DNA of 64,000 nucleotides. Origin: a virus. The notes under the pieces are model-generated. The model did no database searches. It saw only the letters and a list, made by a program, of their open reading frames with translations, and had not been told where the DNA came from. This document shows, in pieces, positions 7,416 to 46,377 of this stretch; positions within the stretch are counted from its first letter, which is position 1, and every line of letters starts with the position of its first letter. Location of the stretch: the IMG/VR virus record IMGVR_UViG_3300032308_002078, positions 101,735-165,734 of that record, one strand, 5' to 3'. The position numbers and the translations under genes were made by a program.

Positions 7416-9329
7416 ATGCTTAACGAACGTAACCTTACCAAAGCAGAATTAGAGAAAAGAGAAGAAATTCTTAAAAATCTTAAAAAAGAAAAAAAATCCC
7501 TAGTTAAACGCTATGGTAAGGATGCGGAAGCAGTTATGTATGGAAGAGCTACCAACATAGCTAAAAAACAAGCTGAATCAATGAACAAAGAAAAACTAAA
7601 AGAACTCGTTAGAAAAACCTTACAACAGGAATCTAATTCTGAACCCACTACAATGGATGAAACTAGACTTTTTGATAATCTTTTTGTTAAAGTACAAAAA
7701 GAATTAGAAAATAAAGGCATTGTTGATGGTAATGACTTAATGCATCAATTTAAGACAAGAAAAACTTTAGAAAATATAAATAAAAAATTATCATTATATG
7801 ATTTGATCTTTTCAAAAGGATTTAGTCCTGAAGAGCGAAAAAATTACGATTTTAATTTAATAAAATATTTTGAAACCCCTCAATTCTCAGCTGAAGATAT
7901 TCAATCATATATAAATAATTCAAACAGTCCTATAAGTCTTGGAGATGCTATAGAAGGCTTACTTGAAAAATATGAAGATTATAAATCTGAAATGGGTGAA
8001 GGTAAAAAAGAAGATGTTACTGGCCCAAAAGGCAAACCAGATGGTAAAATTAATTCTCTAGATTACTTAGCTAAACGTAATACTGCTATTGAAAAGGCAA
8101 AAGGCAAAATAAAAGAAGCAAACATGCCTCAAGTAGATCAAAACATGACTACTCAAGAAGCATCAGGGCATGCTGAAAGATTTGCTAAGTATATGTCTAA
8201 TAAAGAAGGTGAAAATTTTTCAGTTACTATGGGTTCAGTTGATGGCCCATCATTTGATTTAGATTTAGATGGTGAACCATATGAAGGCGGTAGTTATATT
8301 ATAACTGTAGACGGAGATATTGTTAACACAGCATTGTCTGGTAATCCTGTTTATGCTAACACTACAATGTTAGGCAATGATGATAAACCTTTTACTCCTC
8401 CTTCTGATCCTATTATGGATAGAATTAGAGCAGCAATGAAAAGAGATGTCAAAAAAGCACCTGTTAAAGAATATAATTTTGTTCCATCAGATGAATCTTT
8501 AGCTTTAACTTTTAGAAGTAAAGATGAATTTGAAAGAGCAAAAGAACACTTTGCATCTTCTTCAGATTTCCATCCTTTTGATATAAACGATGAATTTAAA
8601 ACTTTCTTTTTTGAAGTTGAAGATCAAGCAGATGCTGACAGTACTGAGTTTTATTTAACTCAAGAATTAGAAGGTGAAACTGATTTACAAGGATATTATT
8701 TTTCTATGGAACCTTCACCATTAAGTGAAGATATTGACTTAGGTCATGAAGATAATGAGCCACATATGATTAAAGGTGAATTATACCAAATTGGTAAATA
8801 CGCTATGAAATTATATGCTACATTAGAAGAATTAGAAGAAACAGGTGAGGAAATTGATTTCCCAGCTTGGTGGCAATCAAAAATTACCACAGCTAAAAAT
8901 ATGATGTCAAGTGCTAGACACTATCTTGATTTTGAATTAAAAGAACCATACATTGATGCTGCTGTAGACGCTGCAACAGGTGAAGCACCTCATATGGGTG
9001 AACCAATGATGGAAGCTGAAATTAGTGCTGAAGAAACATTAGCTGTTAAAATTGCTAAAGCTCTTAAAGCAGAAGTTAACAAAGAGGCCTCAGATCAAAG
9101 CAACCTTAAACAAGCTAGAAAAGCTATGAATGATGGTAATATAAAAGCTGCTAAAAAAATAGCTGAGCCTTATTTAGATGAAGATGTAGTTCCTGGCTCT
9201 AACATTAAAAAAGATAGTAAAGGAAAATGGAGAGTTTTATCTGGTAAAACAGGTAAAAGGTGGCCTCAAACTTATGATTCTAAAAAAGATGCTGAAGATG
9301 CTTTACAAGCTTACCATGCTAATAAATAA
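7416..9329 (+). CDS. Mosaic putative virion protein with three recurrent phage modules
   Basis: 637 residues. Three segments recur in marine phage structural proteins: residues 13-56 (KREEILKNLKKEKKSLVKRY, ending AKKQAESM), about 448-512 (EPHMIKGELYQIGKYAMKLY to ARHYLDFELKEP), and the C-terminal 40 residues (GKWRVLSGKTGKRWPQTYDS with an ALQAYHANK end). Between them lie acidic beta-rich regions and a lysine-rich segment. No catalytic motif was recognised. The beads-on-a-string design and position before the terminase suggest a head-packaged protein. The start (MLNERNLTKAELE) follows the histone-like gene by 6 nt. Confidence 0.72.
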   Translation: MLNERNLTKAELEKREEILKNLKKEKKSLVKRYGKDAEAVMYGRATNIAKKQAESMNKEKLKELVRKTLQQESNSEPTTMDETRLFDNLFVKVQKELENKGIVDGNDLMHQFKTRKTLENINKKLSLYDLIFSKGFSPEERKNYDFNLIKYFETPQFSAEDIQSYINNSNSPISLGDAIEGLLEKYEDYKSEMGEGKKEDVTGPKGKPDGKINSLDYLAKRNTAIEKAKGKIKEANMPQVDQNMTTQEASGHAERFAKYMSNKEGENFSVTMGSVDGPSFDLDLDGEPYEGGSYIITVDGDIVNTALSGNPVYANTTMLGNDDKPFTPPSDPIMDRIRAAMKRDVKKAPVKEYNFVPSDESLALTFRSKDEFERAKEHFASSSDFHPFDINDEFKTFFFEVEDQADADSTEFYLTQELEGETDLQGYYFSMEPSPLSEDIDLGHEDNEPHMIKGELYQIGKYAMKLYATLEELEETGEEIDFPAWWQSKITTAKNMMSSARHYLDFELKEPYIDAAVDAATGEAPHMGEPMMEAEISAEETLAVKIAKALKAEVNKEASDQSNLKQARKAMNDGNIKAAKKIAEPYLDEDVVPGSNIKKDSKGKWRVLSGKTGKRWPQTYDSKKDAEDALQAYHANK

Positions 9330-32312: not shown

Positions 32313-35300
32313 ATGGCTGAAAATAGATATAGAGGTAATAATCGTTTAGATAACCCCAATCAAGGTAGAGGTTTTTTTGATCGGTCATTAGCTTTTAATA
32401 AATTTAATTTACCCATTGTCACTGAAGGATGGGAAGGTTATGTTTTAACTATTAATGATGATGGTGTTGTTTCTTTAGTTTTAAGTGGAAATGGTGGAAG
32501 TGGTACAACAGGTACATCAGGTACTTCTGGTACATCAGGTTCAAGTGGAACAAGTGGTTCTAGTGGTTTATCAGGTTCAAATGGTACCTCAGGTATAAAT
32601 GGTTCTTCAGGTACATCAGGATCAACAGCTGGTACAAGTGGTACTTCAACCACATCTGGCTCTTCAGGAACAAGTGGTAGTTCAGGTTCAACAGGTTCAT
32701 TTGGTACAAGTGGTATAGAAGGTACTTCAGGTACTAGTGGAGGTACAAGTGGTACTTCTGGTACAAGCGGTTCATCAGGTTCTTCAGGAACAGCTGGTTC
32801 CTCAGGTTCAAGTGGATCAAATGGTTCATCAGGTAATGGTGGTAACTCAGGCCAATCAAGTACTTCAGGTACTTCAGGCTCATCAGGTACAGCAGGTACC
32901 TCAGGATTAAGTCAAACTAGTGGTACAGTTGGTACCTCAGGTTCAGCTGGTTCTTCAGGAACAGCAGATACAAGTGGAACTTCAGGTTCTAGTGGTAGTT
33001 CAGGTTCAAATGGTAACGCAGGTAATTCAGGCCAATCAAGTACTTCAGGAACTTCTGGTTCTTCAGGTACTACAGGTACATCAGGATTAAGCCAAACTAG
33101 TGGAACAACAGGTACATCTGGTACCTCAGGTTTAAGTGGTTCTACTGGTTCTTCAGGTTCAAGTGGAGCAGATGGTACTTCAGGAACTAGTGGAACAAGT
33201 GGTAGTTCTGGATCTAGTGGATCTAATGGATCTAGTGGAGCAGACGGTTCAAGTGGTACTTCTGGTACATCAGGTACAAGTGGTTCTTCAGGGTCAAATG
33301 GTTCATCAGGTAACGCAGGAAACTCAGGTCAATCAAGTACTTCAGGTACTAGTGGGTCAAGCGGTTCAACAGGTACTTCAGGTTTATCTCAATCATCTGG
33401 CTCTTCAGGTTCTAGTGGTTCTTCAGGTTCAATAGGAACTAGTGGAGCTAGTAATACATCAGGCACAAATGGAACAAGTGGTTCAAGTGGATCTTCAGGC
33501 TCTACAGGTACATCAGGTGTAGATGGGGGTTCAGGTGCTTCTAGTACTTCAGGTACAAGTGGCTCTTCAGGTTCAGCAGGTTCAGCAGGTACTTTTGGTA
33601 CTTCAGGTAATGCAGGTACTTCAGGTTTAAGTAATACAAGTGGTTCTAGTGGTTCAGCAGGATCCTTTGGTACAACAGGTGATGCTGGTACTTCAGGTTC
33701 TAGTAACACTTCAGGAACTAGTGGTTCAGGTGGTTCTAACGGAACAACAGGAAACGCTGGTAATAGTGGACAAAGTTCTACATCAGGCACATCAGGCTCA
33801 AGTGGTAGTACTGGTACATCAGGACTATCTCAATCTTCTGGTTCAGCTGGTTCAAGTGGTTCTTCAGGTTCAACAGGAACATCAGGTTCAAGTGGTTCTT
33901 CAGGTTCTACAGGTTCATCAGGCTCAAGTGGGGCCGATGGTTCTTCAGGATCTTCAGGCACTTCAGGTTCATCTGGTTCTACAGGTTCATATGGTACTTC
34001 AGGAGATGCAGGCACATCAGGTAACTCAAACACCTCAGGTACTTCAGGTTCAGGTGGTTCAAATGGAACAACAGGAAACGCAGGTAACTCAGGTCAATCA
34101 AGCACATCAGGTACAAGTGGTTCTTCAGGCTCAACAGGCACTTCAGGTTTAAGCCAAACTAGTGGTACTAATGGTACCTCTGGTACTTCAGGTTCAACTG
34201 GTTCAGTAGGCTCAAGCGGTGGAGATGGTACTTCAGGTTCATCAGGCACTTCAGGATCTAGTGGATCAACAGGTTCAGCAGGTTCTTCAGGCGATAGTCA
34301 AACATCTGGTTCATCTGGAAGCTCAGGCTCTTCAGGTTCAGCAGGTACAACCGGTACATCAGGACTAGCAGGTGCTAGTGGTTTATCTAATACAAGTGGA
34401 ACTTCTGGTTCAGGAGGTTCTAATGGTAGTTCAGGAGCAGCAGGTTCTGCAGGTACATCAGGTACAGCAGGTACATCTGGTTCTTCAGGTACTTCAGGTT
34501 CTAGTGGTTCTACAGGTTCTTCAGGATCTAGTGGTGCAGATGGCACTTCTGGTTCTGCTGGAACAAGTGGTTCAAGTGGATCTACAGGTACTTTTGGTAC
34601 TTCAGGTGATGCTGGTACTGCGGGTAACTCAAATACTTCAGGTACTTCAGGATCAAGTGGTTCAAATGGAACAACAGGAAATGCAGGTAACAGTGGACAA
34701 AGTTCCACTTCAGGTACTTCAGGCAGCTCAGGTTCAACAGGTACAAGTGGTTTAAGCCAAACTAGTGGTACAAATGGATCAAGTGGTTCTTCAGGTTTAT
34801 CCGGTACAGCAGGTACCGCAGGATCTTCAGGTACAGCTGGCTCAACAGGTACAAATGGTTCGTCAGGTAATGCTGGAACTTCTGGATCTTCAAATACTTC
34901 AGGTTCTAGTGGTAGTTCAGGTACATCAGGTATAGCAGGTGCAGCAGGTTTTTCTGCTCAAAGTGCAACTTCAGGAACAAGTGGCTCAAGTGGTTCTAAT
35001 GGAACAACAGGAGCTGCGGGTACATCAGGTTCAAGTCAAACAAGTGGTTCAGCAGGTAGTTCAGGTTCACAAGGTAGTACTGGTGCCGCAGGTACATCAG
35101 GATTAAGTCAAACAAGTGGTTCTAGTGGATCAAGTGGTTCACAAGGTAGCACAGGAGCAGCAGGTACATCTGGAGCTTCTAATACAAGTGGTTCATCTGG
35201 TTCTGCAGGTTCATTTGGTACAACAGGAGACGCAGGTACATCAGGTAATTCAAATACCTCAGGTACAAGCGGTTCAGGTGGTTCAAATGGAACCACAGGA

Positions 35301-38048
35301 AATGCCGGCAACTCAGGTCAATCAAGTACTTCAGGTACAAGTGGATCAAGTGGTTCAACAGGTACAAGTGGTTTAAGTCAAACAAGTGGTTCAAATGGTA
35401 CTTCAGGATCTAGTGGATCAACAGGTTCAGCCGGTTCTTCAGGTAATAGCGATACTTCTGGTTTTTCAGGTACAAGTGGTTCTGCTGGTTCATCAGGATC
35501 TTCAGGTTCTACAGGTTCCTCAGGAACTAGTGGGGCAAGTAATACAGCAGGTTCTTCAGGTTCAAGTGGTACATCAGGTACTTCTGGCACTTCAGGTTCT
35601 AGTGGTTCTTCAGGTTCAACCGGTACATCAGGTGTAGACGGAGGTTCAGGAGTTTCAGCAACCTCTGGTACATCAGGCTCAAGTGGTTCAAATGGTAGCA
35701 CAGGTGCTGCTGGTACTTCAGGGGCTAGTCAAACTAGTGGTTCTAGTGGATCAAGTGGTTCACAAGGTACCACTGGTAATATTGGTACTTCTGGAGCTAG
35801 TCAAACTAGTGGATCAAGTGGTTCAGCAGGTTCTAATGGAACAACAGGAGACGCAGGTACATCAGGATCTTCTAATACTTCAGGCACCTCAGGATCAGCA
35901 GGTTCTAATGGAACTACAGGTAACGCAGGTACTTCAGGTGCCTCTAATACCTCGGGTTCATCAGGTTCAAGTGGTTCCTCAGGTTCTTCTGGTACAACTG
36001 GTACTTCAGGTTTAGCGGGTGCTAGTGGTATTTCAAATACATCAGGCACAAGTGGTTCTTCTGGTTCAAATGGAACTACAGGGGCAGCAGGTACATCAGG
36101 TTCAAGTCAAACAAGTGGTACAAGTGGATCTAATGGATCTCAAGGTACAACAGGAGCAGCTGGTACTTCAGGCAATTCTAATACCTCAGGTACTAGTGGT
36201 TCAGGTGGATCACAAGGTACAACAGGTAATGCAGGTACATCAGGTGCCTCTAATACAAGTGGTACAAGCGGCTCAGGTGGTTCTAATGGAACAACAGGGG
36301 CAGCAGGTACATCAGGCTCAAGTAATACATCTGGTACAAGTGGTTCCTCAGGAACTTCAGGTATAGCAGGTGCTGCTGGTTTCTCAGCCCAAAGTGCAAC
36401 CTCTGGTACTTCAGGTTCAGCAGGTTCAAATGGAACAGGTGGAGCAGCAGGTACATCAGGAGCAAGTAATACAAGCGGTTCTAGTGGTTCAGCTGGTTCT
36501 CAAGGTACAACAGGTAATGCTGGTACTTCTGGGGCCTCAAACACTTCAGGTACAAGTGGCTCAGCAGGTACAAATGGTACAACAGGAGCAGCTGGTATTT
36601 CAGGCTCAAGCAATACTTCAGGAACAAGTGGTTCAGGTGGTTCTAACGGAACAACAGGTGCCGCTGGAGCTTCAGGTTCATCTAATACATCTGGTACTTC
36701 AGGTTCAGGAGGTTCTGCTGGTACTGCTGGTGCGGCCGGTGCTTCAGGCTCAAGTAATACCTCAGGTACTTCTGGATCAGGAGGTTCTGCTGGTACAGCA
36801 GGTGCCGCTGGAGCTTCAGGTTCAAGCAATACTTCAGGTACAAGTGGTTCAGGAGGTTCTAATGGAACTAATGGAGCTGCTGGAGCTTCAGGGACTTCTA
36901 ATACAAGTGGTACATCTGGTTCTTCAGGTTCATCTGGTTCTACAGGAACTTCAGGTGTAGATGGAGGTTCAGGTGTTTCAGCTACTTCAGGTACTTCAGG
37001 TTCTGCTGGATCTAATGGAACAACAGGTAATGCGGGCACATCAGGAGCCTCAAATACTTCAGGTTCTGCTGGTTCAGCAGGTTCAAACGGAACTACAGGT
37101 AATGCAGGTACTTCAGGTGCCTCTAATACAAGTGGATCAAGTGGTTCAGCTGGTTCTTCAGGTACAACAGGTACTTCAGGATTAGCAGGTGCAAGCGGTA
37201 TATCAAATACTTCAGGTACTGCTGGTTCAAGTGGTTCTAACGGAACTACAGGAGCTTCAGGAACATCAGGATCAAGTAATGTATCAGGTACTTCAGGTTC
37301 AGGTGGATCAAACGGTACAACAGGAGCAGCTGGTACTTCAGGAAATTCAAATGTTTCTGGTACATCAGGATCAGGTGGTTCAAATGGAACTACAGGAGCT
37401 GCAGGTACATCAGGATCATCAAACACTTCAGGAACATCAGGTTCTTCTGGTACTTCTGGTATAGCAGGTGCTGCTGGTTTATCTGCTCAAAGTGGCACTT
37501 CAGGTACAAGCGGTTCAGCAGGTACAGCAGGTCTTACATTTAATGGTTCCTCAGGAATAAGTGGTGGTACATTTAGTAATCAACCTGATTATTTAGTACG
37601 TACTACAGGAACTACTACTATACAAAGTGTATCTTTCTTATATACTGATGTTACAAATAGTCGATTAGGTATTGGTACTACTTCTCCATCATATAAATTA
37701 CATGTAAATGGAGCTGTAAGTGGTATATCTATTTACGCATCAGATGATATTCAAGCATTCTCAGATCAAAGAGTTAAAGGTGATGTTAAATTAGTAAAAG
37801 ATGCTATTGATAAAATTAATCAAATTAATGGTGTAACATTTACAAGATTAGATGCTACTAGTGATAACAAACATAGACATGCCGGTGTAATTGCTCAAGA
37901 AGTAGAAAAAGTACTCCCAGAAGTAGTACATACAGATCCTCAAACAGGATTAAAATCAGTAGCTTATGGTAACTTAAATGCTTTGTTAATTGAAGCTATT
38001 AAAGAATTAAGTAAAAAAGTAGAAGAATTAGAGAATAAGTTAAAATGA
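32313..38048 (+). CDS. Giant Gly-Ser-Thr repeat fibre with S74 chaperone
   Basis: 1911 residues. Residues 1-60 are a compact head (NRYRGNNRLDNPNQGRGFFD, ending VLTINDDGVVSLVLSG). Residues about 61-1740 are Gly-X-Y triplets with X and Y almost only Ser, Thr, Ala or Asn and no Pro, a collagen-like pattern without the usual prolines. About 42-residue super-units recur (NAGNSGQSSTSGTSG seven times). The last about 170 residues hold a beta segment and a peptidase S74 intramolecular chaperone: SDQRVKGDV, HAGVIAQEVEKVLPEV, AYGNLNALLIEAIKEL, then a terminal coiled coil. The chaperone trimerises and then cleaves itself off. Probably a long tail or head fibre for host adhesion. Confidence 0.92.
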   Translation: MAENRYRGNNRLDNPNQGRGFFDRSLAFNKFNLPIVTEGWEGYVLTINDDGVVSLVLSGNGGSGTTGTSGTSGTSGSSGTSGSSGLSGSNGTSGINGSSGTSGSTAGTSGTSTTSGSSGTSGSSGSTGSFGTSGIEGTSGTSGGTSGTSGTSGSSGSSGTAGSSGSSGSNGSSGNGGNSGQSSTSGTSGSSGTAGTSGLSQTSGTVGTSGSAGSSGTADTSGTSGSSGSSGSNGNAGNSGQSSTSGTSGSSGTTGTSGLSQTSGTTGTSGTSGLSGSTGSSGSSGADGTSGTSGTSGSSGSSGSNGSSGADGSSGTSGTSGTSGSSGSNGSSGNAGNSGQSSTSGTSGSSGSTGTSGLSQSSGSSGSSGSSGSIGTSGASNTSGTNGTSGSSGSSGSTGTSGVDGGSGASSTSGTSGSSGSAGSAGTFGTSGNAGTSGLSNTSGSSGSAGSFGTTGDAGTSGSSNTSGTSGSGGSNGTTGNAGNSGQSSTSGTSGSSGSTGTSGLSQSSGSAGSSGSSGSTGTSGSSGSSGSTGSSGSSGADGSSGSSGTSGSSGSTGSYGTSGDAGTSGNSNTSGTSGSGGSNGTTGNAGNSGQSSTSGTSGSSGSTGTSGLSQTSGTNGTSGTSGSTGSVGSSGGDGTSGSSGTSGSSGSTGSAGSSGDSQTSGSSGSSGSSGSAGTTGTSGLAGASGLSNTSGTSGSGGSNGSSGAAGSAGTSGTAGTSGSSGTSGSSGSTGSSGSSGADGTSGSAGTSGSSGSTGTFGTSGDAGTAGNSNTSGTSGSSGSNGTTGNAGNSGQSSTSGTSGSSGSTGTSGLSQTSGTNGSSGSSGLSGTAGTAGSSGTAGSTGTNGSSGNAGTSGSSNTSGSSGSSGTSGIAGAAGFSAQSATSGTSGSSGSNGTTGAAGTSGSSQTSGSAGSSGSQGSTGAAGTSGLSQTSGSSGSSGSQGSTGAAGTSGASNTSGSSGSAGSFGTTGDAGTSGNSNTSGTSGSGGSNGTTGNAGNSGQSSTSGTSGSSGSTGTSGLSQTSGSNGTSGSSGSTGSAGSSGNSDTSGFSGTSGSAGSSGSSGSTGSSGTSGASNTAGSSGSSGTSGTSGTSGSSGSSGSTGTSGVDGGSGVSATSGTSGSSGSNGSTGAAGTSGASQTSGSSGSSGSQGTTGNIGTSGASQTSGSSGSAGSNGTTGDAGTSGSSNTSGTSGSAGSNGTTGNAGTSGASNTSGSSGSSGSSGSSGTTGTSGLAGASGISNTSGTSGSSGSNGTTGAAGTSGSSQTSGTSGSNGSQGTTGAAGTSGNSNTSGTSGSGGSQGTTGNAGTSGASNTSGTSGSGGSNGTTGAAGTSGSSNTSGTSGSSGTSGIAGAAGFSAQSATSGTSGSAGSNGTGGAAGTSGASNTSGSSGSAGSQGTTGNAGTSGASNTSGTSGSAGTNGTTGAAGISGSSNTSGTSGSGGSNGTTGAAGASGSSNTSGTSGSGGSAGTAGAAGASGSSNTSGTSGSGGSAGTAGAAGASGSSNTSGTSGSGGSNGTNGAAGASGTSNTSGTSGSSGSSGSTGTSGVDGGSGVSATSGTSGSAGSNGTTGNAGTSGASNTSGSAGSAGSNGTTGNAGTSGASNTSGSSGSAGSSGTTGTSGLAGASGISNTSGTAGSSGSNGTTGASGTSGSSNVSGTSGSGGSNGTTGAAGTSGNSNVSGTSGSGGSNGTTGAAGTSGSSNTSGTSGSSGTSGIAGAAGLSAQSGTSGTSGSAGTAGLTFNGSSGISGGTFSNQPDYLVRTTGTTTIQSVSFLYTDVTNSRLGIGTTSPSYKLHVNGAVSGISIYASDDIQAFSDQRVKGDVKLVKDAIDKINQINGVTFTRLDATSDNKHRHAGVIAQEVEKVLPEVVHTDPQTGLKSVAYGNLNALLIEAIKELSKKVEELENKLK
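32490..37540 (+). repeat. 5-kb tandem repeat encoding Gly-X-Y triplets
   Basis: A period-9 base pattern (ggtacatca, tcaggttca and similar) with about 126-nt super-repeats. Ser codons alternate between TCN and AGY, so protein repeats are better conserved than DNA repeats. Long open frames in the shifted and reverse frames here are shadows of the repeat. Confidence 0.9.
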
Positions 38049-38722
38049 CACTTCCAACCTCAAATATTAGTTTTAAAAACATATGGGAAGAAGCTAATGG
38101 CACTTACTCTTCAGGTATTATTAGTTTGTTAACTATGAGTTTTTTTTCCTATTTTGCTGGTCCTAATGGTTCTAGTTCTCAAACAACTAATAATTGGGGC
38201 CAAGGTGAAGGATCAGGAGCTAATAGAATATATGGTACAACAGCCAAAACAACAGGAATACAAGTAGGAGATTTTGATGGACTAACATATTATTATGACA
38301 ATTCAACTTTTCAAGTCACATTAGATGTAACCAATAACAAAACAAATCCAGCTCCCCCTCCTCCAGTAGATAACGCAGTTAATGTTAATGTTGAATTATA
38401 TGATTCTACATTTTCATATCAATATGTTCAAGGTGGAGGTATGGCTATGGCTCCTGGTACTTATGGGCCTTCAGCAGTTAGTCAACCTACAGGAGATCCT
38501 ATTATTTTTAGAGGATACTGGATAGTTACAATTTCAGGAGCAAACCCTACATTTGCTGGAGGTACATGTAATATTGATATAAATGGAACTAATTATGTGA
38601 CTGGAGGTACTTTATCAGCCGGTCCAACTCCTAATACATTTAATTCAACAACATACGGAACAGCAGATGTAACTTCATATAGTGGTTATACAGGTTTGTA
38701 TTTCACAGTAACTATAAATTAA
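38045..38722 (+). CDS. Fibre companion / adaptor-like protein
   Basis: 225 residues. The N-terminus MTLPTSNISFKNIWEEANG resembles the 'LPTSGxISFxxI' start of phage tail-fibre and tail-associated proteins. The rest is Gly/Thr/Asn-rich beta structure with a PAPPPPV hinge near residue 103 and an aromatic-rich end. It overlaps the fibre stop by 4 bp (ATGA), so the two are coupled. I infer a fibre-tip or adaptor; receptor binding is possible. No motif decides. Confidence 0.7.
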   Translation: MTLPTSNISFKNIWEEANGTYSSGIISLLTMSFFSYFAGPNGSSSQTTNNWGQGEGSGANRIYGTTAKTTGIQVGDFDGLTYYYDNSTFQVTLDVTNNKTNPAPPPPVDNAVNVNVELYDSTFSYQYVQGGGMAMAPGTYGPSAVSQPTGDPIIFRGYWIVTISGANPTFAGGTCNIDINGTNYVTGGTLSAGPTPNTFNSTTYGTADVTSYSGYTGLYFTVTIN

Positions 38723-38799: not shown

Positions 38800-38997
38800 A
38801 TGGCTACTAAAAAATTAACTAAAAAAGAGATTGAAGCTCGAAAAGTAGAAATTGTTAAGTTTTACAATGAATTGAAAGAAGAAGAAGCTGAATTGGGTAA
38901 AACATTGTCTGAAAAGTATGGTGTAGGCTCAATCAACACTGAGAGTGGAGAATTTATTCCTTCTGAAATAGAAAATACTGAAGTCGCTTCCTTCTAA
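38800..38997 (+). CDS. Small coiled-coil protein, paralogue of 43777 gene
   Basis: 65 residues. A Lys/Glu helix (LTKKEIEARKVEIVKFYNEL) is followed by LSEKYGVGSINTESGEFIP. The C-terminal KYG-x-I-N-x-(x)-GEF pattern recurs in the protein at 43777-44028 (KYGKINVNMDNGEFTI), so the two are probably paralogues flanking the glycosyltransferase genes. No enzyme motif. A virion or assembly role is possible; a regulatory one cannot be excluded. Confidence 0.68.
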   Translation: MATKKLTKKEIEARKVEIVKFYNELKEEEAELGKTLSEKYGVGSINTESGEFIPSEIENTEVASF

Positions 38998-39015: not shown

Positions 39016-41007
39016 ATGGAAAAACTACTATATGTAGCCCCCCATTTATCAACAGGGGGGCTGCCTCAATATCTAACTAAAAAAATAGAACTACTCAAAA
39101 ATAATTTTGAGATTTATTTAGCTGAATGGTCAGATTGTACTGGGGGTGTATTAGTAGTTACTCGTAACAAAATTGTAAAGCTTGTTGATAAAGACAAGTT
39201 TTTTACTTTAGGAGACAACAAACAAGAACTTATTAATATTATTAATCAGGTAAAACCTGATATTATCCATTTAGAGGAAATACCTGAGTTTTTTATGGAT
39301 TTTAATATCGCAAACCAAATCTACACTCAGGATAGAACCTATAAAATTGTAGAAACGTCTCACGATTCATCTTACGATATAACTCAAAAGAAATTCTTTC
39401 CTGACAAGTTTATGTTTGTGTCTCAATGGCAAATAAATCAATATAAAGATATAGACATTCCTAAAGTATTAGTTGAATATCCTATAGAATATATTGATCG
39501 TCCTGACAGACAAGAGGCACTACAAAAATTAGGATTAGATCCTGATAAAAAACATATTTTACATATTGGGTTATTTACTCCTCGTAAAAATCAAGCTGAG
39601 TTTTTTGCCTATGCTAAAGCATTACCACAACACGAATTCCATTGTGTAGGTAATCAAGCAGACAATTTTAAACATTACTGGGAACCATTAATGAATGATA
39701 AACCCGATAATTTAACTTGGTGGAATGAAAGAACAGATGTAGATGCTTTTTATCAGGCTATGGATTTATTTTTATTTACATCCAGAGGTACAAACAATGA
39801 TAAAGAAACAATGCCTTTAGTAATTAGGGAGGCTGTTTCATATCAAATACCAATTTTAATTCATAATCTACCTGTATATTTGAATTATTGGGATGATTAT
39901 AATGTTAATTATTTAGATACAACAGACTTTAGTTATAATTTAAGTTTAATTGAATCAAGTTTAAACTCTAGTAATTATATTAATGTAGAGGAAGAAGCAA
40001 TTGTAGTTTCAACATATCCGTTATTAAATTCTATAGTTAAAACAACTAAAGAATGTATTGAGACTTTAAAACAAACAGGTAGAAAAATTATATTAACATC
40101 ACATTTACCAATTCCTAAAGATTTACAGGAAATGGTTGATTATTGTATTTACGATAAAAATAATTTACTAACAAAACATACATTCTATCAGTATACATGG
40201 TTTGATTTTGATAGTTGGAAAGTAGATTTAATGTTAACAGGTGAAGATAATGATGTTTACCATGGACCTTCTGTTTATACAAACTATTACAATGCTGCCT
40301 CGTTAGCTAAAGATTTAGGTATTAAAAAATTATATTTCTTAAATTATGATTACCATTTAAAAAATACATCTTATATTGATAATATATCTTTAATACTAAA
40401 TAATAAAAAAGCATATGTTGGTCTAAGAGAAGAACAAGAAGGTAATACAATTATTACTTATTTCTTAGCATCAGAACCTAAATTCTATTTAGATCATTTT
40501 CCATTAATTCAAACATCTAAAGAATATGATGATTTGATGATAAAATGGGGTAGTGAATCTAATGGTTTAGAAAATTTAACTTACCACACATTTAATCAAG
40601 ATAAAGATAAAATATATTGGGAAGATAAACTAAATTTTACCAAATTAATAGATGAAAATTTTGAACATAAAGATTATTCAAGAGTAGAATATTTTTCTGT
40701 ACTACCTGTTAAAGATCATCCTGAACAATTTGCTGTATTTTTAAGTATAGCTAATTCCACAGATAATAGAGATATTGAAATAGCTGTTTATGAGGATGAT
40801 AAAATGTTATTTGATGAAACAGTAAAAGTAACTCATAAATTATCTTGGTTTAGACAAGTAGTATTTAATCCTGAAAAAACATATAAAGTATATTATAGTG
40901 CTTTTGATAGATACAATCAAAATTTAGTTGAAACTAAAAAAATTATAATAAATAAAGAATATTTTGAAAACCAATTACCTAAAAACGGATTTTTAACACT
41001 ATTATGA
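39016..41007 (+). CDS. Two-domain glycosyltransferase (GT-B plus GT-A-like)
   Basis: 663 residues. Residues 1-330 look like a GT4-type GT-B enzyme: VAPHLSTGGLPQYL (N-terminal Gly-rich loop), HILHIGLFTPRKNQAEFFAY (nucleotide-sugar strand) and ETMPLVIREAVSYQIPILI (E-x7-E donor motif). Residues about 335-480 resemble a GT-A fold start (IVVSTYPLLNSIVKTTKECI; KIILTSHLPIPKDL; DYCIYDKNNLLT). The last 140 residues are beta-rich (VEYFSVLPVKDHPEQFAVFL). I infer a bifunctional sugar transferase in the cytoplasm. It overlaps the next gene by 4 bp. A GC-rich hairpin sits within codons 7-16. Confidence 0.85.
   Translation: MEKLLYVAPHLSTGGLPQYLTKKIELLKNNFEIYLAEWSDCTGGVLVVTRNKIVKLVDKDKFFTLGDNKQELINIINQVKPDIIHLEEIPEFFMDFNIANQIYTQDRTYKIVETSHDSSYDITQKKFFPDKFMFVSQWQINQYKDIDIPKVLVEYPIEYIDRPDRQEALQKLGLDPDKKHILHIGLFTPRKNQAEFFAYAKALPQHEFHCVGNQADNFKHYWEPLMNDKPDNLTWWNERTDVDAFYQAMDLFLFTSRGTNNDKETMPLVIREAVSYQIPILIHNLPVYLNYWDDYNVNYLDTTDFSYNLSLIESSLNSSNYINVEEEAIVVSTYPLLNSIVKTTKECIETLKQTGRKIILTSHLPIPKDLQEMVDYCIYDKNNLLTKHTFYQYTWFDFDSWKVDLMLTGEDNDVYHGPSVYTNYYNAASLAKDLGIKKLYFLNYDYHLKNTSYIDNISLILNNKKAYVGLREEQEGNTIITYFLASEPKFYLDHFPLIQTSKEYDDLMIKWGSESNGLENLTYHTFNQDKDKIYWEDKLNFTKLIDENFEHKDYSRVEYFSVLPVKDHPEQFAVFLSIANSTDNRDIEIAVYEDDKMLFDETVKVTHKLSWFRQVVFNPEKTYKVYYSAFDRYNQNLVETKKIIINKEYFENQLPKNGFLTLL
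39036..39062 (+). other. GC-rich hairpin inside the start of the glycosyltransferase gene
   Basis: Perfect 8-bp stem AGCCCCCC / GGGGGGCT with an 11-nt loop, 20 nt after the start codon. It is the most GC-rich stem in an otherwise AT-rich gene and could slow early elongation or attenuate transcription. Confidence 0.55.
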
Positions 41008-41951
41008 GAATTTGTCAAGTAAATCCTGGTTGTGGAATACCCATCCCTCCTCCATCATGGGGTGCAATTGAAAAAATTGTATGGGAATTAACCTGTAATT
41101 TAAAAGAATTAGGCCATGAAGTAAATATAAAATGGGCTAATGAAATCCATTCTGGAGAATATGATTTAGTTATAGTACATGTGGCTAATTTAGCGCTAAA
41201 ATTAGCGTCTAAAAACGTATCATATGTGTTTCAACACCACGACCATCATGCTTACCATTACGGAAAGGACTCTATTATATATAAACAAAATAGAGAAGCT
41301 ATGGAAAAATCAGTTTTCTCCTTAGTACCAGCTCGTTATTTAGTTGATTATTTTGATTTACCTAATGTGCATTATTTTTCACATGGAGTAAATACAGAAA
41401 CTTTTAAACCAAATGATACAACATCTATTTATCATAGTTTATTAATGTTAGCAAATAATGGTTTAGGTGGTTATGGTTCATATGATAGAAAAGGATTTGA
41501 GTTAGGTATAAAAACAGCTATGGCTTCTAATTTACCTATTACTATTGCTGGACCTAAAAATAATGAAAATTGGTTTAATGATAATCCATGGGTATTTGGT
41601 TATCCTAAATTAAGTGTTATAAGTGAACCTACAAATGAACAATTAAGACAATTATATAATTCTCACACTATATTTTTACATCCTAGTGATTTAGAGGCAG
41701 GCCATCCTAATTTAACTTTATTAGAGGCAGCCGCTTGTGGTTTACCTATTTTAGGTTGGATTGAAGAAGAAACTACATTTCATGGTTTATGGAGAACACC
41801 TCGTGATTTAAGAGAAATGTTACGAGGATTAAATGTTATTATAGATGAATATAATACTTACAGACAAAATGCTTTAAAAACAGCAGATGAATTGTCTTGG
41901 TTAAATCGTTCAAAAGAATTAATACAGTTATATGAAAGACTTACTAATTAA
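41004..41951 (+). CDS. Glycosyltransferase, GT4 family (GT-B)
   Basis: 315 residues. MRICQVNPGCGIPIPPPSWG is the N-terminal Rossmann start with a PPPSWGAIE acceptor loop typical of GT4 enzymes. LHPSDLEAGHPNLTLLEAAA followed by CGLPILG carries the E-x7-E donor motif. It uses an NDP-sugar to glycosylate an unknown acceptor. It is fused by overlaps on both sides (ATGA with the previous gene, 20 bp with the next) into one three-enzyme unit, suggesting sequential sugar additions on the same glycan. Confidence 0.9.
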   Translation: MRICQVNPGCGIPIPPPSWGAIEKIVWELTCNLKELGHEVNIKWANEIHSGEYDLVIVHVANLALKLASKNVSYVFQHHDHHAYHYGKDSIIYKQNREAMEKSVFSLVPARYLVDYFDLPNVHYFSHGVNTETFKPNDTTSIYHSLLMLANNGLGGYGSYDRKGFELGIKTAMASNLPITIAGPKNNENWFNDNPWVFGYPKLSVISEPTNEQLRQLYNSHTIFLHPSDLEAGHPNLTLLEAAACGLPILGWIEEETTFHGLWRTPRDLREMLRGLNVIIDEYNTYRQNALKTADELSWLNRSKELIQLYERLTN

Positions 41952-43134
41952 AGAATATAAAAATACTAAAATTTTAAATATAAAAAGCAAAAAACCTTCA
42001 AACACTTTTAATGTTAATTTTGTTGATGGTGCTTTTTTAGAAGTAGTAGGTCCTTTAAAAGAAGAATATAAAGTTACTTTTACAAATACTAAAACTAATG
42101 AAATAGTTCATAATAGTGTTATTAATAATAACATGTGGACTCGTACTAGTATAAAGTATTATGTTGATTGGAAAATAGAAGTATACAATAATACATCAGG
42201 AGAAAAAGTATATGAACATATTTTTAACCCTAGAAATAAAAGAGTTTATATACATTTAGATTCAGGGGCAGTAGGTGATACTTTAGCTTGGTTTCCTTAT
42301 GCTGAAGAATTTAGAAAAAAATGGGATTGTGAGGTAATTTGTTCTACATTCCATAATGAATGGTTTAAAAAAGAATACCCAAAAATTGAGTTTATAAAAC
42401 CAGGAACAGAAGTAAATAATTTATATGCTATGTTTAACATAGGATGGTTTTATGATGGAGAAGAAATTGTAAAAAATAAAGTACCTTTTGATTTTAAAAA
42501 ACATCCTTTACAGCAAACAGCTACAGAAATTTTAGGATTAGAATATAAAGAAGTAAAACCTAAACTTGTTATATCTCGTAAAAAAACAAATATAAGAGAT
42601 AAATATGTTGTAATTGCTCCTCACGCTTCCTCTCACGCCAAATATTGGATGCATCCTAAAGGATGGCAAACTATTATTGATTATTTAAATGAAAAAGGTT
42701 ATAAAGTAGTTATGATAACAGGTGAACCTTTAGGTGATGAATGGCATGACTCAAAATTAGGAGGCACATTAACTGGTGTAATAAATAAAACAGGTTATAG
42801 TATTGATTTATCTGACAGGATGATTGATATTAGAGATGCTGAATTATTTATTGGAGTAGGCAGTGGATTAAGCTGGTTAAGTTGGTCAATAGGTACTCCA
42901 ACTATCCTAATTTCAGGGTTTAGTTACCCTTATACTGAATTTAAAGATTGTGAACGTATCTTTACTTTAGACTCTAAAGCATGTACAGGATGTTTTAATC
43001 GTCATTGGTTAAATCCAGGTGATTGGGAATGGTGTCCTGATTATAAAGATACTCCAAGACATTTTGAATGTACAAAAACTATAAAACCTGTTCAAGTAAC
43101 TGATGCAATTAATAAAATATTGAATATTTATTAA
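41932..43134 (+). CDS. TibC/Aah-type protein O-heptosyltransferase relative
   Basis: 400 residues. The first about 100 residues form a beta-rich accessory domain. The catalytic part reads GDTLAWFPYAEEFRKKW, CSTFHNEWFKKEYPKIEFIK, APHASSHAKYWMHPKGWQT, FIGVGSGLSWLSWSIGTPTI and ISGFSYPYTEF. The end carries C351-x2-C354 (CTGCFN), C368 (DWEWCP) and C380 (HFECT), matching the iron-binding Cys set of bacterial autotransporter heptosyltransferases TibC and Aah. Those enzymes O-glycosylate Ser residues in repeats of autotransporter adhesins. Here the nearest Ser/Thr-rich repeat protein is the giant fibre 4 kb upstream, plus the Ser-rich protein directly downstream. The sugar donor is unknown. Confidence 0.87.
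   Translation: MKDLLIKEYKNTKILNIKSKKPSNTFNVNFVDGAFLEVVGPLKEEYKVTFTNTKTNEIVHNSVINNNMWTRTSIKYYVDWKIEVYNNTSGEKVYEHIFNPRNKRVYIHLDSGAVGDTLAWFPYAEEFRKKWDCEVICSTFHNEWFKKEYPKIEFIKPGTEVNNLYAMFNIGWFYDGEEIVKNKVPFDFKKHPLQQTATEILGLEYKEVKPKLVISRKKTNIRDKYVVIAPHASSHAKYWMHPKGWQTIIDYLNEKGYKVVMITGEPLGDEWHDSKLGGTLTGVINKTGYSIDLSDRMIDIRDAELFIGVGSGLSWLSWSIGTPTILISGFSYPYTEFKDCERIFTLDSKACTGCFNRHWLNPGDWEWCPDYKDTPRHFECTKTIKPVQVTDAINKILNIY
43125..43132 (+). promoter_or_regulatory. TATTTATT late-type motif
   Basis: The octamer overlaps the end of the heptosyltransferase gene, 5 nt before ATG 43138. Confidence 0.4.
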
Positions 43135-43137
43135 TAA

Positions 43138-43767
43138 ATGGCAAACGTATTAAAACAAATATTTGTTTCTGGTTCAGACCAAATATCTCAAACTTATACT
43201 ATTGAATCTTGGCATGTATCACAATCGGTAGATGCTTTTACAGGAACTGCTGCTTATGATATTACATTATCTGGGTCTTTTACTTTAACAGGTTCACAAT
43301 ATGTTACAGGATCTATCTCTGCTTCATTTGGAAGTAATACAGTAGGATTTTTTGGTACAAGTTCTTGGGCTGTTTCTTCATCAAGAGCAATTAGTTCATC
43401 ATTTGCAACTAGTGCTTCTTATGCTTTAAGTTCTTCTAACGCTATTAGTGCCTCAATTTCTAACACAGCTGTTTCTTCAAACACAGTAACAGGATATTAC
43501 ATACCAAGTGGTTCTATAGTAGCTGCTGCTGGTGTTTTAAAAATATTTGCAGGAGCAGGCAAAACAAATTCTAGTGTTCCACCTACAGCTATTGTTACTG
43601 TATCACCTGTTGATTTAACAGGTAAAACATTAAATCAAAATTTATTTTTAGGAGTTGCTCCTTCACAATCAGCTACAATAAATGCTACTTTGAATAGTCC
43701 AACTTCTATTACTTTTGAAAGTGATTTACCCAATATTGATTTTACATTTATTGCTACTTATATTTAA
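43138..43767 (+). CDS. Serine-rich putative tail fibre protein
   Basis: 209 residues. The middle (about 80-115) is a Ser/Ala repeat (SSWAVSSSRAISSSFATSAS, then SYALSSSNAISAS) of the type found in phage fibres. The flanks are Thr/Gly-rich beta segments (DITLSGSFTLTGSQYVTG; TATINATLNSPTSITF style). Its position 3 nt after the TibC-like enzyme makes it a possible second glycosylation substrate, but this is inference. There is no signal peptide. Confidence 0.7.
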   Translation: MANVLKQIFVSGSDQISQTYTIESWHVSQSVDAFTGTAAYDITLSGSFTLTGSQYVTGSISASFGSNTVGFFGTSSWAVSSSRAISSSFATSASYALSSSNAISASISNTAVSSNTVTGYYIPSGSIVAAAGVLKIFAGAGKTNSSVPPTAIVTVSPVDLTGKTLNQNLFLGVAPSQSATINATLNSPTSITFESDLPNIDFTFIATYI

Positions 43768-43776
43768 AAATAACAC

Positions 43777-44028
43777 ATGGAAACTAAAGTTTTAACTCAA
43801 GAAGAATTACAATCTTTAAAAGACATTCAATCAAAAAGAGACCAAATTACTATAAATTTAGGTTATATTGAATATCAAATTCAAGAATTAGAATTACAAA
43901 AAGAAAATCTAGTTGAAGGAATCTCATCATTAAAAAATGAAGAAGTCCAAATAAGTAAAGAACTCCAATCCAAATATGGCAAAATTAATGTCAATATGGA
44001 CAATGGAGAGTTTACTATTTTAGATTAA
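43777..44028 (+). CDS. Small coiled-coil protein, paralogue of 38800 gene
   Basis: 83 residues, mostly a coiled coil (EYQIQELELQKENLVEGISS; EVQISKELQSKYGK), then KYGKINVNMDNGEFTILD. The C-terminal KYG...N...GEF pattern matches the 65-residue protein at 38800, so the pair probably arose by duplication. Together they bracket the glycosyltransferase and fibre cassette. Function unknown. Confidence 0.68.
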   Translation: METKVLTQEELQSLKDIQSKRDQITINLGYIEYQIQELELQKENLVEGISSLKNEEVQISKELQSKYGKINVNMDNGEFTILD

Positions 44029-44084: not shown

Positions 44085-45842
44085 ATGGCAGAAACATTAA
44101 TATCACCTGGCGTACTCGCATTAGAAAACGATCAGTCATTTATTACACAACAACCTGTAACTGTTGGAGCCGCTCTTATTGGCCCTACAGTAAAAGGTCC
44201 TGTAGAAATTCCTACAATCGTTACTTCATACAGCGACTACCAAAGCAAATTTGGTACTACTTTTTTAAGTGCTAGTCAAGTTTACACTTATTTTACTTCA
44301 ATCGCCGCTTTTAATTATTTTAACAACGGTGGAGAAACTTTATTAGTATCAAGAGTAGTAAGTGGAACATTTAGTTCAGCTACTACAGCTACTGGTTCTG
44401 TAACAGGTTTATTAGGTGGTGGAGTATCTATATTAAACTCAGCTTCTTTAGCTGAAGCATTAGTATTAAATACTATTTCACAAGGTACTATCATGAACAG
44501 TTCTAGTTCATTAGATAGTGGTGGATCATTAGCTGCTTCAGGTTCTGCTAATAACATCAGATGGCAAATTGCTAACCAAGATACTTCTCAAGGTACTTTT
44601 AGTTTATTTATTCGTCAAGGTGATGATACTACAAGTAATCCTATCATATTAGAATCTTGGACTAACTTATCAATGGATCCAACAGCTCCTAACTTTGTAT
44701 CTAGAATAATTGGTAACCAAGTTAGAACTTATAATTCTGTTGATAATCAAATCTCAATAACTGGTGATTATCCTAATAATTCAAGATATGTTTATGTATC
44801 AAGTGTAAAAACTCCTACTCCATTCTATTTTGATAATAATGGTTTAGCTAAATCTACATTAACTGGTTCATTACCTGCTAACGCAAGTGGTTCATTTGTA
44901 GGCGCTGCTGGTAATTTGTTTGGTGCTGGAGCTGATTACTACAACAATATTGATGTTGCTTCAACCAATACTCAAGGATTAACAGGTAGTGATTATGCTA
45001 ACATGATTAGTTTATTAGCTAATGTTGATGATTATAGATACAATGTATTGTTAACTCCTGGCTTGTTTGCTAACACAGCTACTATTGGTGCTTCTCAAGT
45101 AACAACAGCAATTAGCAATACTGCAAACAGAGGAGATGCTATTTATGTTCCTGATTTAGTACCTTTTAGCTCAAGTGTAAATGATGTAACTACAGCGGCA
45201 AATGCTAAAAATAGTTCATATGCTGCTTCATACTGGCCTTGGGTTCAAACAGTTGATCCTGATTCTGCTCAATTAGTTTGGGTTCCTGCTTCAGTAATGG
45301 TAGGCGGAGTTTATGCTTACAATGATTCAGTTTCTGAACCTTGGTTTGCTCCTGCAGGTATTAACAGAGGTGGATTAAGCAGTGTAGTAAGAGCTGAAAA
45401 GAAATTAACTCAATCTCAAAGAGACACTTTATACACAAATAAAGTTAACCCAATTGCTACTTTCCCTGGAACTGGAGTTGTAGTTTATGGTCAAAAAACA
45501 TTACAAACTAAATCAAGCGCTTTGGATCGTGTAAACGTTCGTCGTTTGTTGATTGCTCTTAAATCTTATATTTCTCAAGTAGCTCAAAACTTGGTGTTCG
45601 AACAAAATACAATTGCAACTCGTACAAGTTTCTTGAACCAAGTTAACCCATACTTAGAATCAGTTCAACAACGTCAAGGTTTATATGCTTTCAAAGTAGT
45701 AATGGATGATTCTAATAACACTCCTGATGTAATTGATAGAAACCAATTAGTAGGTCAAATTTATTTGCAACCAACTAAGACAGCTGAATTCATTTACTTG
45801 GACTTCAACATCTTACCTACTGGAGCAACTTTTCCAGCGTAA
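44085..45842 (+). CDS. gp18: Tail sheath protein (gp18-like)
   Basis: 585 residues. The N-terminal ISPGVLALENDQSFITQQPV and GAALIGPTVKGPVEIPTIVT are the classical contractile-sheath start. The C-terminal about 150 residues (LTQSQRDTLYTNKVNPIATF; VRRLLIALKSYISQVAQNLV; QLVGQIYLQPTKTAEFIYLD) form the conserved domain that packs against the tube. The sheath contracts on host binding to drive the tube through the envelope. The middle is a Ser/Gly-rich surface insertion. It is followed by the tube gene, as in T4. Confidence 0.95.
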   Translation: MAETLISPGVLALENDQSFITQQPVTVGAALIGPTVKGPVEIPTIVTSYSDYQSKFGTTFLSASQVYTYFTSIAAFNYFNNGGETLLVSRVVSGTFSSATTATGSVTGLLGGGVSILNSASLAEALVLNTISQGTIMNSSSSLDSGGSLAASGSANNIRWQIANQDTSQGTFSLFIRQGDDTTSNPIILESWTNLSMDPTAPNFVSRIIGNQVRTYNSVDNQISITGDYPNNSRYVYVSSVKTPTPFYFDNNGLAKSTLTGSLPANASGSFVGAAGNLFGAGADYYNNIDVASTNTQGLTGSDYANMISLLANVDDYRYNVLLTPGLFANTATIGASQVTTAISNTANRGDAIYVPDLVPFSSSVNDVTTAANAKNSSYAASYWPWVQTVDPDSAQLVWVPASVMVGGVYAYNDSVSEPWFAPAGINRGGLSSVVRAEKKLTQSQRDTLYTNKVNPIATFPGTGVVVYGQKTLQTKSSALDRVNVRRLLIALKSYISQVAQNLVFEQNTIATRTSFLNQVNPYLESVQQRQGLYAFKVVMDDSNNTPDVIDRNQLVGQIYLQPTKTAEFIYLDFNILPTGATFPA

Positions 45843-45888: not shown

Positions 45889-46377
45889 ATGGCAGTATTA
45901 GATCCAAACGAAATATTTTTCACAGCCTTTGAACCAAAACAGGCTAACCGATTCATTATGTATATTGACGGTATACCTGCGTATGAGATTAAAGGTGTTG
46001 GTGCTGTAAACTTAACTCAAGGTACTGTACCTTTAAATCATATAAACGTTCAACGCTTTGTTAAAGGTAAAACTACTTGGGGGCCTATTCAGTTCACATT
46101 ATTTGACCCTATTACTCCTTCAGGAGCTCAGGCAGTAATGGAATGGGTACGTTTACATCACGAATCAGTAACAGGACGTGATGGTTACAGTGATTTCTAT
46201 AAGAAAGACTTAACATTTGATGTATTAGGACCTGTAGGTGATATTGTATCAGAATGGATTATTAAAGGTGCATTAATTACAGATGCTAACTTTGGCGATT
46301 ATAACTGGGATACTGTAGATACAGCTATTAACATTACAATGACCGTTCAACCAGATTACTGTGTGTTGAATTTTTAA
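45889..46377 (+). CDS. gp19: Tail tube protein (gp19-like)
   Basis: 162 residues, matching T4 gp19 (163). KQANRFIMYIDGIPAYEIKG, VKGKTTWGPIQFTLFDPITP and EWVRLHHESVTGRDGYSDFY are characteristic. The tube is the inner conduit built as stacked hexamers on the baseplate. It ends before a terminator and lies immediately downstream of the sheath gene. Confidence 0.95.
   Translation: MAVLDPNEIFFTAFEPKQANRFIMYIDGIPAYEIKGVGAVNLTQGTVPLNHINVQRFVKGKTTWGPIQFTLFDPITPSGAQAVMEWVRLHHESVTGRDGYSDFYKKDLTFDVLGPVGDIVSEWIIKGALITDANFGDYNWDTVDTAINITMTVQPDYCVLNF

Follow-up and report, generated by a model that had tools for sequence, protein, structure and literature searches.

A TibC-like protein glycosyltransferase from a phage tail gene region and its recurrent pairing with GTSG-repeat proteins in aquatic phages and bacteria

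Introduction

TibC of enterotoxigenic Escherichia coli (PDB 4RAP/4RB4) and AAH transfer heptose from ADP-heptose to many Ser residues of a repeat protein, and for TibC the roles of the catalytic Asp, the donor-site residues, and the iron-finger Cys residues have been described, as has the requirement of the thumb tip residues F265/V266 for formation of the dodecamer (PMC4358343). The partner proteins of TibC and AAH are autotransporters with a β-helix of strand-loop-strand (SLS) repeats. Glycosylation of virions by phage-encoded enzymes has been described for mycobacteriophages, whose glycosyltransferases act on their own virion proteins with a reported effect on anti-phage responses, and whose capsid and tail tube subunits carry the glycans at their C-termini (Freeman et al. 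2023, in PMC12619734). Phage-encoded virion glycosylation and the function of TibC-type enzymes in adhesin biology are thus already known. With respect to collagen-type Gly-x-y proteins, glycosylated Thr was reported to stabilize the triple helix of the cuticle collagen of the worm Riftia pachyptila (Mann et al. 1996, in PMC11766948).

Here we describe a TibC-like enzyme encoded by an aquatic phage. It shares with TibC and AAH the family profile, direct similarity in phmmer searches, the GT-B fold with an N-terminal β domain, the catalytic Asp, the donor site, and the iron finger, but its partner is a fiber with GTSG repeats, its gene lies among tail genes together with two more glycosyltransferase genes, and it belongs to a deeply separate branch in which F265/V266 of TibC are replaced. 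Whereas the mycobacteriophage glycans just mentioned are located on capsid and tail tube subunits, a TibC-fold enzyme is found here beside a long Ser/Thr-repeat fiber. This fiber is a collagen-type Gly-x-y protein like that of Riftia, but its repeats contain mainly Ser at position Y and no proline, whereas the Riftia collagen is an animal protein with an unrelated enzyme.

Results

We analyzed a window of 64,000 nucleotides at the end of an IMG/VR virus record with a total length of 165.7 kb. The gene of the TibC-like enzyme is located between the genes for a collagen-like fiber and the tail sheath and follows two genes for GT4-like glycosyltransferases. In the following, genes are named by their start positions.

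32313..38048, + strand: collagen-like GTSG/GSSG fiber, 1911 aa, proposed substrate (PF01391, E 1.7e-155)
32493..37562, + strand: Gly-x-y repeat region of the fiber, Ser/Thr-rich, residues 61-1750 (composition count)
37761..37931, + strand: Peptidase_S74 (endosialidase-type) intramolecular chaperone at the fiber C-terminus (PF13884, E 6.6e-16)
38045..38722, + strand: 225-aa protein between fiber and glycosyltransferases, present in only some relatives
38800..38997, + strand: small conserved charged protein retained in the cassette, homologues of 82-94 aa
39016..41007, + strand: GT4-like glycosyltransferase of 663 aa, with lengths of 663-917 aa among relatives (PF00534, E 3.5e-11)
41004..41951, + strand: GT4-like glycosyltransferase, 315 aa (PF13524, E 4.1e-6)
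41932..43134, + strand: predicted TibC-like protein O-glycosyltransferase (TIGR04414), 400 aa (profile, phmmer, structure model, alignment)
43138..43767, + strand: Ser-rich 209-aa protein, possible second substrate (composition)
43777..44028, + strand: conserved 83-aa protein just before the tail sheath, also present in Immutovirus (weak coiled-coil-type matches only)
44085..45842, + strand: tail sheath, which places the cassette inside the tail-structure region (context)
45889..46377, + strand: tail tube homologue, sharing 60% identity with its counterpart in Immutovirus immuto (context)

The open reading frames 39016 and 41004 overlap by 4 nt, and 41004 and the enzyme gene overlap by 20 nt. 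A profile comparison did not support a suspected resemblance of the 39016 protein, in its C-terminal domain, to the N-terminal β domain of the enzyme (probability 1.5%).

The initial annotation of this region had described a 1911-residue fiber with Ser or Thr in most X and Y positions, two other glycosyltransferases, and a second, Ser-rich fiber at 43138. Residues 61-1750 of the large fiber contain 573 Ser, 278 Thr, 522 Gly, and 0 Pro, and Ser or Thr occupies position X in 374 (77%) and position Y in 338 (69%) of its 488 phased G-x-y triplets. Ser alone was found at Y in 285 of these triplets (58%), in 70% of the pooled phage triplets, and in most bacterial repeats. The Peptidase_S74 chaperone covers residues 1817-1873, and with both a Gly-x-y repeat and a chaperone domain the protein is, by its sequence features, a collagen-like phage tail fiber. 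Due to the absence of Pro from the repeat region, the stability of a triple helix of this fiber would be doubtful without modification. The two additional glycosyltransferases were recovered as 39016 and 41004, and the 43138 protein is indeed Ser-rich and encoded 3 nt downstream of the enzyme gene. Its description as a fiber is unproven, as profile searches gave no family match.

The 400-residue protein itself had been proposed to be a TibC/Aah-type heptosyltransferase. The open reading frame, the motifs GDTLAW (residues 115-120), KYWMHPKGW (residues 237-245), and FIGVGSGLSW (residues 306-315), and the set C351/C354/C368/C380 on which this proposal was based are all present in the translation. 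In a profile search with NCBIfam models, TIGR04414 (hepto_Aah_TibC) matched with 304 bits (E 1.3e-90), compared to a curated cut-off of 200 bits, and the match extended over positions 10-374 of the 374 model positions. A phmmer search connected the enzyme directly to TibC (4RAP; E 1.5e-54), whereas PHROGs and PADLOC gave no result for it. An AlphaFold2 model, calculated with an input alignment of 36 sequences from the window and viral contigs, reached a pLDDT of 87.9 and a pTM of 0.84. In a structure search with this model the first 21 matches were TibC chains (E about 5e-30, TM 0.79/0.82), with WaaC and WaaF far behind; PF01075, which represents the distantly related GT9 lipopolysaccharide (LPS) heptosyltransferases, matched with an E value of 4.7e-11. 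The protein comprises an N-terminal β domain, a GT-B catalytic domain with D116, and an iron finger formed by the four Cys residues, and thus both the GT-B fold and the Cys residues of the putative iron site, for which a structural check had been suggested, were found.

In the alignment, the catalytic residue D110 of TibC corresponds to D116, the donor-site residues T226, K230, R286, and W305 correspond to S233, K237, R296, and W315, and the iron-finger residues C339/C342/C358/C370 correspond to C351/C354/C368/C380. R296, K237, W315, and D116 are invariant among the enzyme (P0001) and the 35 aligned sequences most closely related to it, and each of the four Cys residues is retained in 47 of 49 phage sequences. 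In 20 of the 49 phage sequences, Thr, Val, Leu, or another residue takes the place of the adenine-contacting Arg (R286 in TibC), a hint that some subclades may use a different donor sugar. Score, fold, and active site make the enzyme a member of TIGR04414, and as judged from its sequence it resembles an autotransporter heptosyltransferase in all testable catalytic features.

F265/V266 at the thumb tip of TibC are aligned with S274/K275 in a gappy region where the pairing of residues is approximate, and in the same region most phage sequences have polar residues or gaps at these positions. As the thumb tip residues are not conserved in this gappy part of the alignment, a TibC-like ring is not expected for the phage enzyme. 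A search of the 165.7-kb record with TIGR04415, the model of the strand-loop-strand autotransporter repeat, gave no match at E values up to 1. Because the autotransporter repeat is absent and the thumb tip of the dodecamer is not conserved, the enzyme should not be filed as a bacterial autotransporter heptosyltransferase (BAHT) in the strict sense.

A scan of viral contigs for relatives of the enzyme yielded 121, of which 80 (L001-L080) were kept. The order collagen-like fiber, 39016, 41004, enzyme, small protein, sheath, and tube was present in nearly all contigs of sufficient length, amounting to dozens of loci, and was maintained down to 54% enzyme identity. A homologue of 43138 was found downstream of the enzyme gene in about one in four relatives and is absent in most enzyme-bearing relatives. 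In two contigs (L013 and L037) other genes follow the enzyme gene, yet a GTSG protein is encoded nearby. In the Microcystis phage Mel-JY01 the enzyme domain forms the end of a 1226-aa open reading frame annotated as FkbM methyltransferase, with a GTSG fiber encoded just upstream; this phage is the sole isolate identified with both enzyme and GTSG fiber. In the 735-kb genome LR756501 the genes for a GTSG protein, a 39016-like enzyme, and a 41004-enzyme fusion adjoin. Fusions of a 41004-like domain to the TibC-like enzyme occur in many phages, a sign that both act together.

Some relatives showed additional features. In three of them (L015:8746-10617, L022:662-2533, and L029:3519-5390), the TibC-like enzyme is extended at its C-terminus by ~220 aa that appeared glycosyltransferase-like by eye. 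A 541-aa gene inserted between 41004 and the enzyme gene in L037 (8395-10020), the start of which resembles a NodU-type carbamoyltransferase by eye only, possibly serves further sugar decoration. Four relatives (L019:10876, L022:4658, L029:7515, and L046:5071) have an open reading frame of 491-497 aa on the opposite strand between the sheath and tube genes.

The closest named relative by tail sheath is the Flavobacterium phage vB_FspM_immuto (Immutovirus). Between PhoH and the tail tape measure its genome and the window are syntenic, and the gene order around the region is alike, but the enzyme was not found in immuto by tblastn of the phage collection and the GTSG pattern does not occur in its 160-kb genome. 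At the level of genome sequence, immuto is thus a natural control in which fiber and enzyme are missing together. Two contigs with close relatives of the enzyme (L091 and L092), one of which also carries phage sheath and tube genes, were binned with Flavobacteriia metagenome-assembled genomes (MAGs). This binning and the kinship of the sheath to that of immuto make a host from the Flavobacteriia likely.

The most closely related enzymes of bacteria (38-45% identity) occur as standalone proteins and are encoded beside small secreted or lipoprotein-like GTSG/GSSG proteins. The gene for such a protein is located 12 nt upstream of the enzyme gene in a Methylococcaceae MAG (L093) and directly next to it in Methylomicrobium sp. 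RS1 (L094/L476) and in L096, L099, and L101. The following small GTSG/GSSG proteins beside a TibC-like enzyme were located.

L093, 8954-9925: small secreted or lipoprotein-like GTSG/GSSG protein
L094, 11217-11918: same type
L099, 11288-11914: same type
L101, 8608-9036: same type
L477, L478, L480-L482, and L502-L507: further loci with such proteins beside the enzyme

In a scan of two bacterial orders, scores above the family cut-off occurred in 11 of 201 genomes of one order and in 6 of 109 of the other, and the matches formed two classes, one near 655-663 bits and one with 287-327 bits, the latter being the class of P0001. Strand-loop-strand autotransporter repeats adjoin the enzyme gene at three of the four loci of the high-scoring class, and the fourth (L475) showed neither motif. 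In the 287-327-bit class, a GTSG protein adjoins the enzyme gene at 11 of 13 loci according to a strict motif; L477 was recognized as the twelfth on reading, and the thirteenth, L479, contains only something like the end of a GTSG protein. At control loci with GT9 genes from the same two orders the strict motif was found in 0 of 42 cases, compared to 11 of 13 (p 6.5e-10).

Co-occurrence was also sampled from the side of the fiber. A DNA pattern of the GTSG repeat was used to draw viral records independently of the enzyme (records of at least 30 kb, n = 40), and the 41 controls of similar length consisted of most of the records of two random DNA patterns (8 and 3 records) pooled with a 14-mer set. 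TIGR04414 was detected in 24 of the 40 GTSG records and in 3 of the 41 random records (Fisher p 3.4e-7, for a GTSG sample that is phylogenetically non-independent). Among the 18 enzyme-bearing GTSG records with positions listed, 14 had the enzyme no more than 12 kb away from a GTSG match, and across records the distances ranged from 0.3 to tens of kb. The other 16 of the 40 GTSG records, some of which are fragments, lacked the enzyme, as did two GTSG-rich control phages, and three control phages with an enzyme or partial enzyme lacked GTSG. The control phages G048 and G067 (L450 and L451) encode a shortened TibC-like protein of 366 aa that has the same score, covers model positions 26-319, and occurs without GTSG, and the 636-kb genome LR756504.1 contains a standalone TibC-like enzyme (457157-458236; L090) and nowhere the GTSG pattern. 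In view of the enzyme-bearing controls without GTSG and the GTSG-bearing controls without enzyme, the pairing is strong, not absolute, in a set in which many viral records are fragmentary and related loci lack independence. The check for co-occurrence with repeat fibers that had been proposed with the initial annotation was thus clearly positive in phages and, unexpectedly, also in bacterial chromosomes.

An enzyme tree of 116 rows was calculated, in which 58 rows had GTSG and 33 had SLS as partner label. Phages sampled via the fiber were labeled by the GTSG in their genomes, for which they had been selected, and all others by their neighbors; SLS labels were assigned by a regular expression, and L013 was labeled by reading its open reading frames. 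L445, L451, and L452, which form long branches and have no GTSG partner, were left out. The partner type changed once on the tree, on a branch with an SH-aLRT of 100, compared to a mean of 27 changes for shuffled labels, in a quick search without bootstrap in which the long-branch rows are uncertain. On this phylogenetic basis the TIGR04414 family has a second branch, which is paired with GTSG repeats instead of strand-loop-strand autotransporters. This suggests that the TibC family has a further class of targets that had not been described before.

Discussion

In the explanation that we consider quite probable, the enzyme is a TibC-fold O-glycosyltransferase of a second TIGR04414 branch that modifies the phage's own GTSG/GSSG fiber, probably with heptose, and the GT4-like neighbors extend or vary the glycan. 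The initial annotation had likewise assumed the phage's own fibers as the target and had supposed that host recognition would thereby be shielded or retuned, and genomic association makes the GTSG fiber the likeliest substrate. The enzyme would transfer heptose from the ADP-heptose of the host to Ser, perhaps also to Thr, in the repeats of the 1911-aa fiber, in the host cytoplasm and before or during tail assembly, and 39016 and 41004 would probably act on the resulting glycan. Since position Y is mostly Ser in the window fiber and in the pooled phage and bacterial repeats, Ser at Y is a natural first guess for the acceptor, and we infer that it would be the main one. TibC acts on Ser residues of a folded β-helix, and a collagen-like chain thus represents a different acceptor shape, which counts against this explanation.

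The gene for rfaE_dom_II, which represents one ADP-heptose step, was not found in the phage carrying the enzyme, in LR756501, or in Mel-JY01, but is present in 6 of 8 bacterial genomes with enzyme loci, and the donor would therefore come from the host. Synthesis of ADP-heptose by the phage itself was considered and is not supported, rfaE_dom_II being the only gene searched. The same absence, together with the altered R286 column in 20 of 49 phage sequences, would fit a donor sugar other than heptose on the GTSG fiber, at least in some phages. We regard this as unlikely, albeit a serious candidate, as R296, K237, W315, and D116 are invariant in the group of P0001 and the bacterial genomes mostly have rfaE_dom_II.

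Three further explanations concern the substrate. The enzyme might modify another virion protein such as the 43138 protein, with the GTSG fiber being a mere neighbor, and in agreement with this idea the Ser-rich 43138 is encoded 3 nt behind the enzyme, and about one in four relatives has a homologue at this place. However, most enzyme-bearing relatives lack such a homologue, and the GTSG repeat is the sole feature common to the bacterial partners and unrelated phages, so that we consider this improbable. Some phages modify host surface sugars, and the distant relationship to GT9 LPS heptosyltransferases and the fold matches to WaaC and WaaF could be taken to suggest that the enzyme modifies the LPS core or a host protein and thereby blocks superinfection or defense. 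The full TibC-specific architecture including the iron finger, the location in the tail-structure region rather than in an early or moron region, and the pairing with GTSG proteins in bacteria make a host surface target very improbable. We assign an even slighter chance to the possibility that enzyme and fiber occur together because of shared phage lineage or exchange as linked cargo, with no enzyme-substrate relation. The common tail-region order of most loci among L001-L080 would be expected in that case, but the pairing recurs in differing phage architectures, with distances between 0.3 kb and tens of kb, as well as in bacterial chromosomes whose GTSG proteins are quite different, the partner type agrees with the enzyme tree apart from a single change, and the syntenic phage immuto lacks both parts.

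If the own GTSG fiber is the substrate, modification could serve to stabilize the rod and/or to mask the surface. In view of the proline-free repeats and the reported stabilization of a worm collagen by glycosylated Thr, glycan-stabilized rods and a masked virion are equally plausible, and by this analogy stabilization of a proline-free collagen-like rod appears as good a guess as shielding. A more far-reaching version, which we regard as possible rather than probable, is that the TibC-fold branch of phages and bacteria hyperglycosylates Pro-free Gly-Thr/Ser-Ser repeats in general, that sugars rather than proline or hydroxyproline stiffen the long rods, and that phages in this way build giant glycoprotein fibers.

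In the open literature, of which our coverage was incomplete, we found no paper that ties TIGR04414 to phages or GTSG repeats, and within the literature searched a TibC branch devoted to GTSG repeats across aquatic phages and bacterial chromosomes appears to be new. GTSG-repeat fibers are widespread in aquatic phage records, and their glycosylation by an own enzyme would change the view of the virion surface, adsorption, and stability of many uncultured phages. The TibC family, known for adhesin autotransporters, would gain a second class of substrates and probably a different quaternary structure. The bacterial enzymes and their small secreted GTSG proteins offer simple two-gene systems for testing in E. 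coli.

Two other observations were made in the phage genome. Outside the window, a second sugar block (G000:C1:11213-18841; L083) encodes a methyltransferase together with glycosyltransferases of the GT4 type (two) and the GT2 type (two) and one with weak similarity to GT10. Open reading frames resembling GIY-YIG homing endonucleases by eye are scattered over the genome, near positions 8720, 19716, 21260, 34751, 43480, and 96847 of G000:C1.
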